From an uncultured Acidobacteriota bacterium (GTDB taxonomy: Bacteria; Acidobacteriota; UBA6911; CAINFC01): a stretch of DNA of 64,000 nt. Each line of letters opens with the position of its first letter. Position 1 is the first letter of the stretch. The notes below the pieces were generated by a model, which had not been told where the DNA came from, made no database searches, and worked only from the letters and a program-made list of their open reading frames with translations. The stretch spans positions 62,001 through 126,000 of the forward strand of contig CAINFC010000252.1 in NCBI GenBank assembly GCA_903847975.1. The letters are read 5' to 3'. The position numbers and the translations under genes are program-made. Below are positions 4,307 through 43,542 of the stretch, in pieces.

Positions 4307-5221
4307 ATGCGTTTCCCCTTTTCGCCGATCGACTACCACGAGCCGGTTTTCCGCCCGCCGAGCGAGGCCTCCTCGTTCATTCTGCAAATCACCCTGGGGT
4401 GCTCCTGGAACCGTTGCGCGTTCTGCGAAATGTACCAGAGCAAGCGATTCCGGGTCCGCTCCCTGGAAGAAATCGAATCGGACCTGAAGCAGGCCGCGCG
4501 CCTATGGCCCGACACCCGCCGGGTGTTCCTGGCCGACGGCGATCCTCTGGTTCTGGCACCGTCCCGCCTTCTGCCGATACTGGAGATGATCCGGAAGTAC
4601 CTCCCGGCCGCCCAGCGGATCTCCGCCTACGCCTCCCCGAGGAACCTGGCAGCCCGGACCGTGGAAGAGCTGGCGGCCATCCGGGGAGCGGGCCTGAACC
4701 TGGTCTATGTGGGAATCGAATCCGGGGACGACTGCCTGCTGGAACGGATTCAAAAAGGAGAGACGGCCGCCACGATCATTTCCGGATTGAACCATGCCGC
4801 TCAGGCCGGAATCCGCCGCTCGGTCATGATCCTGATCGGCCTGGGCGGAGAAACCTTATCCCGGCAGCATGCCGAGCAGTCTGCCCGGGTGGTGAACGAA
4901 ACCCGGCCGGAGCACCTGTCCACGCTGGTGCTCCGCTTTCCGCTCGGCGAAAACCGCTTTCGAAGCCTGTTTGGCGCCGATTACCGTCCCCTGGACTACC
5001 TCGGCCACCTGCGCGAAATGCGCCTCTTTCTCTGTGGACTGAGCCTGGACCGCACCGTCTTCCGGAGCGATCACATCTCCAACGTTCTGGCCCTGCGCGG
5101 TACCCTGTCGCGCGACCGGGACCCGCTGGTCGCGCGGCTGGACCGCTTCCTGCTCGATATCGAAAAGAATCCCGGGCCCTGGGAGCGCGAGTTCCGCGAC
5201 CGGGACCAGCGCTCGCTCTGA
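4307..5221 (+). CDS. Radical SAM protein (CX4CX2C type)
   Basis: The 304-residue protein binds a [4Fe-4S] cluster through GCSWNRCAFCEMY near residues 31-43. The spacing is CX4CX2C rather than the common CX3CX2C and is characteristic of one family of uncharacterised radical SAM proteins. A LADGDPLVL segment and a VYVGIESGDD segment match the SAM-binding and barrel motifs. The reaction is unknown. It follows the M28 peptidase by 10 bases. Its last 18 coding bases, including most of the stop codon, lie in a 44-base sequence that is repeated exactly 800 bases downstream, beyond a vapBC module. Confidence 0.8.
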   Translation: MRFPFSPIDYHEPVFRPPSEASSFILQITLGCSWNRCAFCEMYQSKRFRVRSLEEIESDLKQAARLWPDTRRVFLADGDPLVLAPSRLLPILEMIRKYLPAAQRISAYASPRNLAARTVEELAAIRGAGLNLVYVGIESGDDCLLERIQKGETAATIISGLNHAAQAGIRRSVMILIGLGGETLSRQHAEQSARVVNETRPEHLSTLVLRFPLGENRFRSLFGADYRPLDYLGHLREMRLFLCGLSLDRTVFRSDHISNVLALRGTLSRDRDPLVARLDRFLLDIEKNPGPWEREFRDRDQRSL

Positions 5222-5247
5222 AACCTTACGGCTTTTCGAACATCCGG
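5204..5247 (+). repeat. Left 44-bp direct repeat flanking vapBC
   Basis: Identical to 6004-6047 at 43 of 44 positions (mismatch A5221 / C6021), with a period of exactly 800. It holds the last 18 bases of the radical SAM gene, a 4-base spacer and a 22-base remnant of the 3' end of the M16 peptidase gene, whose intact copy ends at 6026. Identity stops abruptly on both sides (5203 and 5248). Confidence 0.95.
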
Positions 5248-5260
5248 TCTGCGGTCCGGA

Positions 5261-5716
5261 TCACCGGGCAGATACACCGGGTGAGCGAAGAAGCGGAATC
5301 CGGACTCGCAGGCCCGGAAAGCGGGAGTAATCCCGATCGGCAGTCCAGAACTCTTTCACCCTGTGATCCAGGCAGATGGCGGCAACCCGGGCGTCATGCA
5401 CCAGGGGACCAACGGTTTTCCCTGCGATCAGCAAGGACTTGAGCTGCCCCCAATAATCCCGTGCTTCACCGATCCGTTGCAGCGAAGGGCTTTCCATCCA
5501 ATACTCCACCTGAAGGACGGCATCCTCTAGGGTCGTAGGCGGACGATAGATCCTGGGGTGGGTGACGACTGCCAAAAACTCGTGTATGCAGGGCCACGGT
5601 ATGGTCCAGGGAGCGGCTCCCTCCGCCAACCGGCACACACAACGAAGCGCTGTCTTGTGCCAAGGGGAGTCCTCTCTCACGGAATAGACAAGGATATTGG
5701 TATCAACCGCAATCAT
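5261..5716 (-). CDS. vapC: VapC-type PIN-domain ribonuclease toxin
   Basis: The 151-residue protein opens with MIAVDTNILVY, the first PIN acidic motif (D5). It also has CIHEFLAVVTHPR (conserved Glu), VHDARVAAI and TADRDYSRF, giving the full set of acidic residues that bind Mg2+ in VapC endoribonucleases. Toxins of this family cleave tRNA or rRNA when not bound by VapB. The start ATG overlaps the antitoxin stop as ATGA, the usual translational coupling of vapBC. No active-site loss is visible even though the antitoxin is frameshifted. The gene lies inside an 800-base segment bracketed by 44-base direct repeats. Confidence 0.88.
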   Translation of the reverse strand: MIAVDTNILVYSVREDSPWHKTALRCVCRLAEGAAPWTIPWPCIHEFLAVVTHPRIYRPPTTLEDAVLQVEYWMESPSLQRIGEARDYWGQLKSLLIAGKTVGPLVHDARVAAICLDHRVKEFWTADRDYSRFPGLRVRIPLLRSPGVSAR

Positions 5717-5951
5717 CCGCCGTGCCCTTCATAAATCAGCGAGCGAACGGCTGCCCAATCCCCGTCGATCGCCAGGCCCTGCCCCTTGGTAGTGACGGTC
5801 TTCAGGCGGAAACGACGGTGGGCCACCGGCTTATTATGCAGGACATCCACAGGCCGCTCTCCACAACCTCGCGTAGCGGAATGCCCTCCCGGGCTGCGTG
5901 CTCTTTGGCTTGCCGGAACAGGGTATCGGATATTTCTATGGTGGTTTTCAT
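5713..5951 (-). pseudogene. vapB: Frameshifted VapB-type antitoxin
   Basis: The first frame from the ATG at 5951 gives an antitoxin start (MKTTIEISDTLFRQAKEH, then REGIPLREVVESGL) but stops early, after about 49 codons. A second frame supplies the expected C-terminus (RRFRLKTVTTKGQGL ... SLIYEGHGG), which wraps the toxin in this family, and its stop overlaps the vapC start. Joining the frames after ESGL gives VDVLHNKPVAHRRF and a normal antitoxin of about 79 residues, so one base is missing near 5851. It could be a true inactivating mutation, a sequencing error, or recoding. The operator-like inverted repeat just upstream is intact. Confidence 0.8.
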
Positions 5952-5963
5952 CCCGGTATTTTA

Positions 5964-5989
5964 CCATAAATATGGCTATCTATTTATGG
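5964..5989 (-). promoter_or_regulatory. Inverted-repeat operator upstream of vapBC
   Basis: A perfect 9-base inverted repeat (CCATAAATA and TATTTATGG) with an 8-base spacer begins 13 bases before the vapB start. VapB antitoxins of the ribbon-helix-helix type repress their own operon through such palindromes, so an autoregulatory operator is inferred. Confidence 0.6.
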
Positions 5990-6003
5990 GTTTATGCTTT
6001 TTA

Positions 6004-6047
6004 GACCAGCGCTCGCTCTGCAACCTTACGGCTTTTCGAACATCCGG
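6004..6047 (+). repeat. Right 44-bp direct repeat flanking vapBC
   Basis: Partner of 5204-5247. It contains the true 3' end of the M16 peptidase gene plus a 17-base remnant of the radical SAM gene end, whose stop TGA now reads TGC. Removing one repeat copy and the intervening cassette restores two convergent genes whose stops are 4 bases apart. Confidence 0.95.
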
Positions 6048-8221
6048 GGTTCGATGGCCGGATTGAATTCCACCTCCCGGATTTCGGTCCATCCTGCCTC
6101 CTTGCCGTCTTCCGTTGAAGTGTATCGCGCCGGGAGAATAATCCCCTGGAAATTTTTCCAATCGGCATAATCCACCACCCGGTGAACCGGCCCGGAAGCC
6201 CCCAGTCCCTGGTAGCTCGATCGCACGATGCGGAAGGTCTCGGGATCGACAAACCAGCGGGTCTGCGTGCCGCCGGCATCGACATCGATCAGGACGGCCT
6301 CCAAATCGCCGATCTTTTCCCGGCCAGCCAAGGCAAAGGAGAAACGCGGATTCTCCAGATTCTGGCAAATAAAAAGGGTATCGCGGCCCAGCTCTTTAAG
6401 GATGGAGTCCCTGGTGCCGGCGGAAAAATCCCGAACCATCCCACCCATAATCATGAAAGCCTTTTCGCCGGTAGCCACGGTGGTGATTTCGCCGGAAGGC
6501 ATCCTCACCTTCGACACCATCCGGCTCGGGTACTGAATGATAACGTCCGTATCGCCCTGAAAGTCTCCCTGTGGGGTTTTCAGCATTCTGGCCCCCTTGA
6601 TGCGCGTGGCGGCGATTTCCTTCAGGCGCTCCTGTCCGCCGAGCGCATTCACCACGCGGACGGCAATTTCTTTACCTTCCGCAAGGCCGGCGGTAGGAAT
6701 TTCGGGAAGCGAGGATCCCGAAGCCGGGGGCTCGTTCCGGATGGCGATATCGAGCGTACGCACCGTTCCGAAGCCGGACAGCGGACGGTCAAAATCCCTG
6801 GCCCGGCCCACCACCAGAACCGCAAACCCGCTGCGGTTGAGATACTTCCGGGACACCCGGGCCACATCCTCGGCGCTGACTTTTTCCACGCCGGCGCGGA
6901 ACCGGTCGGTGAAATCCAAGGGGTATCCGTGCCACTCCAGGTTCATCTGCTCCAGCAGGATTTTTTCCCGGGAGTCGTAGCGGAAAATAAAAGAGTTCAG
7001 GATGCTCTCTTTGGCCAGCTTCAGCTCTTCCGCGGTGCACGGCGCCTGGGTCATCCGGTCCACTTCTTCATAAAGGGCGTCGATGGCCCGGGCCGTTTTT
7101 TCGCTTTGGGTACCCAGGAAAAGGCGGTAGATTCCCGGCGCATCCCAGCCCATGCCCACTCCTCCGCCAACCTCATACGCAAATCCCTTCTTCGAACGGA
7201 CATGGGAGAAGAGGCGGGACGAAAAGCCGCCTCCAAAAATCTCGTTCATCACGGTCAGGGCGTAATAGTCCGGGTTGTTGCGCAGCGTTCCCAGCTGCAC
7301 CAGGCGAATGGCGCTCTGGTTCACGTCCTCTTTGGGGATGAAAAAAATCCCCGGTCGGGTCGGCGGCCAGGCCAGTTCCGGCTTGCGGTAGGCGGAACCG
7401 CGCGGCCATCCTTCAAAAGCCTCGCGGATCCTGGATTCCATGGCGGCCGCATCGAAGTCTCCGACCAGGCCGAGCAGGATGCGGTCCGGAAACACATGGC
7501 TCTGGTGCCAGGCCACCAGGTCCTCCCGGACAATGGAGGCCAGGGTCCAGAATTCCACCTGCCGCGCCGCCGGATGATCCGCGCCAAAGGCCAGCTTTCC
7601 GGCCTCCCGGTCGGCAATTTCCATGATCTCGTCGTTGCGCCGGGAAATCCCGGCCTTGATGCTTTCCTTGGCAATGTCGATTTTTTCCTGCCGGAATTCG
7701 GGCTCCTGCAGGAGCTCCCGGCAGACAAGGAAAGTGGCCTCAAAATCTTCCTTCAGACAGGAAAATTGAATGGACATCCCGTCGGTGCCGCCATCCGTCT
7801 CCACTTTGGCAGCGCGCATTTCCAGGAAATCGTCCAGCTCGTCGCCGGTGCGCTTGCGGGTTCCTCCGGTCCGCCAGGCCTGGCCGAGAACCGCAACCAG
7901 CCCGGCTTTCCCGGCCGGCTCCTCCAGCGACCCTCCCCGGACGCGCGCAAAGCCGGAGATAAGAGGCAGGCTGCGGTCTTCCTGGAGGAACACCACCATG
8001 CCGTTGGCCAGCTCCAGTCTCTTCGGCTTTTGCGGAGAAAACTCCCGCAACGGAGGCACCGGAATCTTTTTCCAGTCTGTGGCCACCGCCTTGGACGGAG
8101 AGGGCGGCTTGGACTGAGCCAAGGCAGAACCTTCCTTGCCGGCAAGAAGCAGAACGGCGGCGATTGCTGCCGTCAGGGCAATCAGGGACCCATGATTATT
8201 TCGTTGGGATCTCAATCTCAT
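6026..8221 (-). CDS. M16-family peptidase-like subunit with C-terminal LolA/LolB-like domain
   Basis: The 731-residue precursor has a signal peptide and two M16 half-domains (about residues 60-510). The N-terminal half lacks the HxxEH zinc motif. The second half retains the RxxxxYxxG-type region (VRSKKGFAYEVGGG), so this is the non-catalytic partner of the active M16 peptidase encoded 15 bases upstream. A C-terminal domain of about 200 residues (ALGGQERLKEI ... WFVDPETFRIVRSSYQG ... DWKNFQGIILPARY) resembles the LolA/LolB-like fold of envelope proteins. The last 22 bases are duplicated at 5226-5247. A periplasmic location is inferred. Confidence 0.85.
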   Translation of the reverse strand: MRLRSQRNNHGSLIALTAAIAAVLLLAGKEGSALAQSKPPSPSKAVATDWKKIPVPPLREFSPQKPKRLELANGMVVFLQEDRSLPLISGFARVRGGSLEEPAGKAGLVAVLGQAWRTGGTRKRTGDELDDFLEMRAAKVETDGGTDGMSIQFSCLKEDFEATFLVCRELLQEPEFRQEKIDIAKESIKAGISRRNDEIMEIADREAGKLAFGADHPAARQVEFWTLASIVREDLVAWHQSHVFPDRILLGLVGDFDAAAMESRIREAFEGWPRGSAYRKPELAWPPTRPGIFFIPKEDVNQSAIRLVQLGTLRNNPDYYALTVMNEIFGGGFSSRLFSHVRSKKGFAYEVGGGVGMGWDAPGIYRLFLGTQSEKTARAIDALYEEVDRMTQAPCTAEELKLAKESILNSFIFRYDSREKILLEQMNLEWHGYPLDFTDRFRAGVEKVSAEDVARVSRKYLNRSGFAVLVVGRARDFDRPLSGFGTVRTLDIAIRNEPPASGSSLPEIPTAGLAEGKEIAVRVVNALGGQERLKEIAATRIKGARMLKTPQGDFQGDTDVIIQYPSRMVSKVRMPSGEITTVATGEKAFMIMGGMVRDFSAGTRDSILKELGRDTLFICQNLENPRFSFALAGREKIGDLEAVLIDVDAGGTQTRWFVDPETFRIVRSSYQGLGASGPVHRVVDYADWKNFQGIILPARYTSTEDGKEAGWTEIREVEFNPAIEPRMFEKP

Positions 8222-9874: not shown

Positions 9875-10035
9875 TCCGGTTCTGTCGTCCCGATGGGACT
9901 TGGGCGTGTGCCGCCCGGGGCGGAACAGCGGATAGCGCAGCGTTGCGCTCTGCCATTGCTTTGCGGAGCCCCGCGTAAACCGGCACAGGACGGCCATTCC
10001 GAGGCAAAAGTCCCGGCCGGGACGGCAGAACCGGA
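9875..10035 (+). repeat. MITE-like interspersed element, copy A
   Basis: About 160 bases bounded by imperfect terminal inverted repeats of about 28 bases. The left end reads TCCGGTTCTGTCGTCCC and the right end is close to its inverse (GGGACGGCAGAACCGGA). The interior (GTGCCGCCCGG, then AACCGGCACAG, then ATTCCGAGGCAAA) recurs in the same order at 43371-43460. No coding capacity, so it would need a transposase in trans. Confidence 0.65.
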
Positions 10036-43337: not shown

Positions 43338-43542
43338 CCGGCTCTGCCGTCTTGTGCGGGACCTGCGCGGGTGCCGCCCGGAACGGAAAAGCGGATTTCG
43401 TTACGGAATACTTGCCCCGCATTAACCGGCACAGAACTGTTATTCCGAGGCAAAGTCCCGTTAGGGATGGCAGGATTTTGGCCCGGCAATTCATTGCCGG
43501 GTTGGCTCCGGCACGGGGCAAGTCCCATCGGGACGACAGAAC
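43338..43542 (+). repeat. MITE-like interspersed element, copy B
   Basis: Shares with copy A (9875-10035), in the same order and orientation, GTGCCGCCCGG, AACCGGCACAG, ATTCCGAGGCAAA, then a GTCCCG..GGGA hairpin with GGCAG. It extends further and ends in CAAGTCCCATCGGGACGACA, an inverted copy of the left end of A. The left end is degenerate. No coding capacity; the gap between the PilX and coiled-coil genes is made of it. Confidence 0.65.

Follow-up and report, generated by a model that had tools for sequence, protein, structure and literature searches.

A toxin-antitoxin (TA) gene pair of the vapBC type lies here between two copies of a 44-bp sequence composed of the ends of two convergent genes, and insertion of the pair with duplication of its 44-bp target is by far the simplest reading of the locus, and a well supported one. 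Probably a foreign vapBC was inserted recently at the convergent junction and the 44 bp were duplicated through an illegitimate, repair-type capture. The window, that is the whole stretch of 64,000 nucleotides that was analysed, corresponds to bases 62001-126000 of contig C252 (CAINFC010000252.1), and the features on which the argument depends are the following.

4307..5221, + strand: radical SAM gene, left neighbour (open reading frame; PF04055)
5204..5247, + strand: direct repeat copy 1, 44 bp, supplying the radical SAM gene end with TGA
5248..6003, - strand: cassette read as inserted, 756 bp, the interval between the repeat copies
5261..5716, - strand: vapC, PIN ribonuclease toxin, 151 aa (PF01850, TIGR00028)
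5713..5952, - strand: vapB antitoxin gene, disrupted as read (three-frame translation, comparison with homologous VapBs)
5955..5990, - strand: operator/promoter-like palindrome (CATAAATA...CCATATTTATGG; comparison with L004 and L005)
6004..6047, + strand: direct repeat copy 2, 44 bp, containing the M16 gene end, with TGC in place of TGA
6026..8221, - strand: M16 peptidase gene, right neighbour (open reading frame; PF05193, PF00675)

The repeat and the cassette at the convergent junction

The two repeat copies are identical at 43 of 44 positions, lie 800 bp apart from start to start, and share not a single further base beyond either edge. Each unit consists of the terminal 18 bases of the radical SAM gene, the four bases AACC and the end of the convergent M16 gene, and thus within a single unit the stops of the two genes are separated by four bases. 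The sole mismatch, A in copy 1 and C in copy 2, falls on the last position of the radical SAM stop codon, which reads TGA in the first copy and TGC in the second, so that the radical SAM gene can end there in copy 1 only; its stop is completed at 5221, and the M16 gene ends at 6026-6028 (TTA on the + strand) within copy 2. Both convergent genes are therefore intact, each with an end of its own. These observations bear out the original prediction of a sharp-edged repeat with one mismatch that spans both gene ends and leaves each host gene complete. A pattern search allowing at most three mismatches found the 44-bp sequence just twice in the whole 8.13-Mb genome, at these two places.

The genome assembly is fragmented into 326 contigs, and a mixture of strains with and without vapBC could have been collapsed during assembly such that one repeat copy is false; the one-base frameshift in vapB described below could likewise be a base-level error. 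Against such an artefact, the two copies differ by one base and pass into separate flanking sequences, neither host gene is damaged, and the genome has a completeness of 99.1% and a contamination of 1.8%; we consider this explanation very improbable.

The cassette comprises the operator, vapB and vapC, flanked at either end by approximately 13 bp of additional sequence. VapC passes the profile cut-offs of PF01850 (24.4 bits; cut-off 23.6) and TIGR00028 (86.8 bits; cut-off 73.6), and by inspection it possesses the acidic residues expected of a PIN domain. The operator-like palindrome also precedes vapB in the homologous loci compared (L004 and L005). There are no terminal inverted repeats at the cassette ends TCTGCGGTCC and ATGCTTTTTA, and among the open reading frames of the 756 bp, which are those of vapBC only, there is no transposase or integrase, nor would one fit; the original prediction had already stated the lack of all three elements. 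An insertion sequence or composite transposon was accordingly rejected, as transposase, terminal inverted repeats and a short fixed target duplication are all missing. This vapBC family is dispersed over the phylum. No mobile carrier of VapC relatives was found in the viral contigs or phages searched, and a plasmid search returned one match (46%).

The gene pair had been taken as intact, which holds for vapC; vapB carries a one-base deletion relative to its homologues. The ATG at 5952 opens a short frame and the C-terminal half resumes in another one, since a base is missing after codon 34, in GGCCTGTGGA-TGTCCTG, and the first 34 codons and the remainder are thereby set in different frames. 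Homologous VapBs run in a single frame (MKTTIEIS...LREV(V/I)E.GL...RFRLKTVTTKGEGL...IYEGHGG). The frameshift may reflect a decaying antitoxin or module, or a one-base assembly error; as an intact toxin beside a broken antitoxin should be hard to tolerate, a base error or a weak toxin is plausible.

Within the source genome the bracket is an isolated case. A scan of 1.68 Mb, in 101 stretches, was set to report direct repeats that are isolated and not dispersed, have a length of 25 bp or more and an identity of 92% or more, and lie within 8 kb; among the six pairs obtained the 44-bp vapBC pair is the only isolated clean one. Pairs that were rejected comprise an ABC duplication (L062), a UspA motif (L110), coding repeats of the tandem type (L158), a contig end (L155) and a dispersed intergenic repeat (L182), and a look-alike at L073 consists of decayed paralogous gene pieces. 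The source genome carries ten other PIN genes, and none of the nine loci tested has a comparable bracket.

Intergenic repeats with AAAGTGGGTGTCCTTATT motifs recur in the source genome (L063 11980-14349; L182 3604-4623), and at L063 some of them sit around a PIN gene. Two segments of the window 33 kb apart, 9879-10008 and 43414-43542, match each other perfectly over 24 bp in inverted orientation and at 85% over 41 bp in direct orientation, and they are probably linked as copies of a dispersed intergenic repeat.

Empty sites and bracketed PIN loci in other genomes

The joined radical SAM-M16 junction was sought by a DNA search of 100 genomes and by a protein search of 38 genomes of the same class together with genome contigs, and no sufficiently close ortholog was found. 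The source genome is the sole member of its family among the genomes compared, the best radical SAM homologue among them has 37% identity, and in none of the loci retrieved from other genomes do the two neighbour genes occur together. As no compared genome is close enough to display the empty site, we infer the direction of insertion at the window locus: a 44-bp unit built of two gene ends would most simply have arisen at the joined junction. The repair mechanism is an inference as well.

We also examined PIN loci of other genomes for long repeats bracketing the toxin gene. The clearest example is locus L219 in genome G008, of the same class, where an 87-bp repeat (95% identity) of the 3' end of a TPR gene, present nowhere else in G008, encloses approximately 1.6 kb with a PIN gene and two overlapping candidate antitoxin frames (L219 916-2795). 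Its congeners G034, G010 and G036 provide three empty sites, in each of which the downstream sequence is contiguous with a single copy of the TPR gene end. In G008 the downstream-side copy has drifted and the gene-side copy has acquired a new stop. Next to the downstream copy lies a palindromic element, dispersed in dozens of copies through the genus, that blurs a few junction bases. The comparison with these empty sites demonstrates an independent, G008-specific insertion of a PIN-toxin cassette with an 87-bp target duplication. It gives independent support to the proposal that TA cassettes of this group can insert with long duplications, and the unique gene-junction repeat around vapBC supports well the claim that the window cassette duplicated its target.

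A search for further vapBC copies flanked by long direct repeats had also been suggested. At locus L106 in genome G292, of the same phylum, 51 bp from the 3' end of clpA bracket a vapBC. A long flanking repeat is absent at 28 of the 29 loci of the window's VapC family. At L106 a 295-bp copy (97%) of the 5' end of a nearby kinase gene is spliced in at a CGCCC microhomology, and beside clpA a Phd-like antitoxin and vapBC lie in alternate segments of a mosaic (L106 30-1967); in G408, a congener of G292, clpA is followed directly by another gene. L106 looks like a third, more complex case, with a mosaic resembling template switching. G036 carries a phd-vapC pair flanked by copies of a dispersed intergenic repeat (L257 15276-16065), and this pair is absent at the corresponding place in G010 and G034; the same pair (88% identical) is found at another locus of G010 without repeats (L289 1500-2240). 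L248 and L257 were dropped as clean cases since their brackets involve dispersed repeats.

The surroundings of L106, which are pieced together from duplicated segments and include two different TA genes, and the G036 pair between dispersed repeat copies would suit another origin of such brackets, namely that a short duplication already present served for homologous recombination, or that the junction was first duplicated in tandem and its interior later replaced by vapBC. The window locus, by contrast, has one unique 44-bp unit, with neither a larger duplication nor a dispersed repeat, and this route needs two steps where one suffices; at this locus we regard it as quite improbable.

With the window finding excluded, strong bracketing repeats occur in 3 of 51 sequence windows around PIN genes against 4 of 953 control tiles (p = 0.004), an enrichment that is suggestive only, because the control tiles come mostly from one genome. 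Dispersed intergenic repeats are involved in two of these three PIN windows, and L219 was left out of the 51 because its flank was too short.

Probable capture by repair, and the case for and against a recombinase

Under the favoured reading, replication or repair synthesis would have run through the 44 bp, switched from the chromosome to the incoming vapBC DNA as its template, and then returned to the chromosome 44 bp upstream of its point of departure, which would yield two 44-bp copies; an equivalent route would be a 44-base staggered break filled in around an inserted fragment. No dedicated recombinase would be needed, and selection would retain those events that supply an addiction module while leaving both genes unharmed. 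The insertion would have survived because no gene was damaged and because TA modules resist loss. No common motif was found among the 44-, 51- and 87-bp duplications, and this variation in length and sequence fits repair and not a recombinase. One feature of the cassette stands against random capture, in that it is almost exactly the minimal functional unit, which such capture would not require.

A different account invokes a tyrosine or similar recombinase, supplied in trans, that integrates site-specifically; the 44 bp would then be attL and attR, and a vapBC circle would have carried a copy of the junction. Integrases often target gene 3' ends and restore them, a 44-bp block of identity is within the usual att range, and the duplicated stretch is a gene 3' end at the window, G008 and G292 loci alike. 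Nevertheless, the cassette has no recombinase gene, the other loci offer no constant att core, and gene 3' ends are also simply the least harmful places for insertion. The differing lengths, the missing motif and the scarcity of brackets in the same VapC family argue against a fixed-site recombinase as well as against a mechanism encoded by the cassette, and integration in trans appears unlikely. Two suggestions of the original prediction, site specificity and a small mobile unit with an insertion mode of its own, find no support, since the duplications vary from locus to locus in both sequence and length and few members of the VapC family are bracketed. We likewise attach little credence to a dedicated, still unknown trans-acting machinery that would insert TA cassettes at gene 3' ends in this class with duplications of 44-90 bp; if it were true, TA pairs would be genuine minimal mobile elements.

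Relation to known systems

The means by which chromosomal TA pairs spread in the absence of transposases remain an open question. The insertion read here illustrates a way of landing between convergent genes that harms neither. Together with the G008 PIN case and its three empty sites, the window locus extends to type II toxin-antitoxins an insertion mode known from restriction-modification (RM) systems, and a survey of TA loci for long bracketing repeats would put the question to the test. In the literature searched, whose coverage was incomplete, we found no paper describing a vapBC insertion with a long target duplication.

Two described TA loci come near to this one. In Microcystis aeruginosa PCC 7806, a ParE/ParD-like TA module is fenced by 152-bp direct repeats (PMC7935541), so that there too a type II TA pair on the chromosome is enclosed by direct repeats; a 16-bp inverted repeat occurs within each of them, and the paper does not present them as gene ends, whereas the window repeat is a unique gene junction. 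In Sulfolobus islandicus, vapBC loci are flanked by degenerate IS copies, and the IS are thought to move vapBC (PMC3718332); these are horizontally moving vapBC cassettes as well, but the window locus has no IS. With respect to the VapC family TIGR00028 (Mtu_PIN_fam), the window toxin passes the curated cut-off, and its antitoxin frame is broken as read.

The closest parallel is provided by the RM systems, for which insertion with a long and variable target duplication has been reported (Nobusato et al. 2000 Gene 259:99; Furuta et al. 2010 NAR 38:2428; via PMC3874152, PMC3031569, PMC1643837), the duplications measuring roughly 100 bp and differing in length from one locus to another. The mode of insertion was therefore wrongly called undescribed in the original prediction (PMC3874152, PMC3031569). 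The likeness lies in an addiction-type gene pair without a transposase that is flanked by long direct target duplications, and the differences lie in the cargo, a type II TA pair in the window, and in the length, 44 bp being at the short end of the range; an empty site is seen at the G008 locus and not at the window locus. Since the cargo is vapBC, the window locus is described as an event of the type already known from RM systems but carrying another cargo, and not as an RM insertion.
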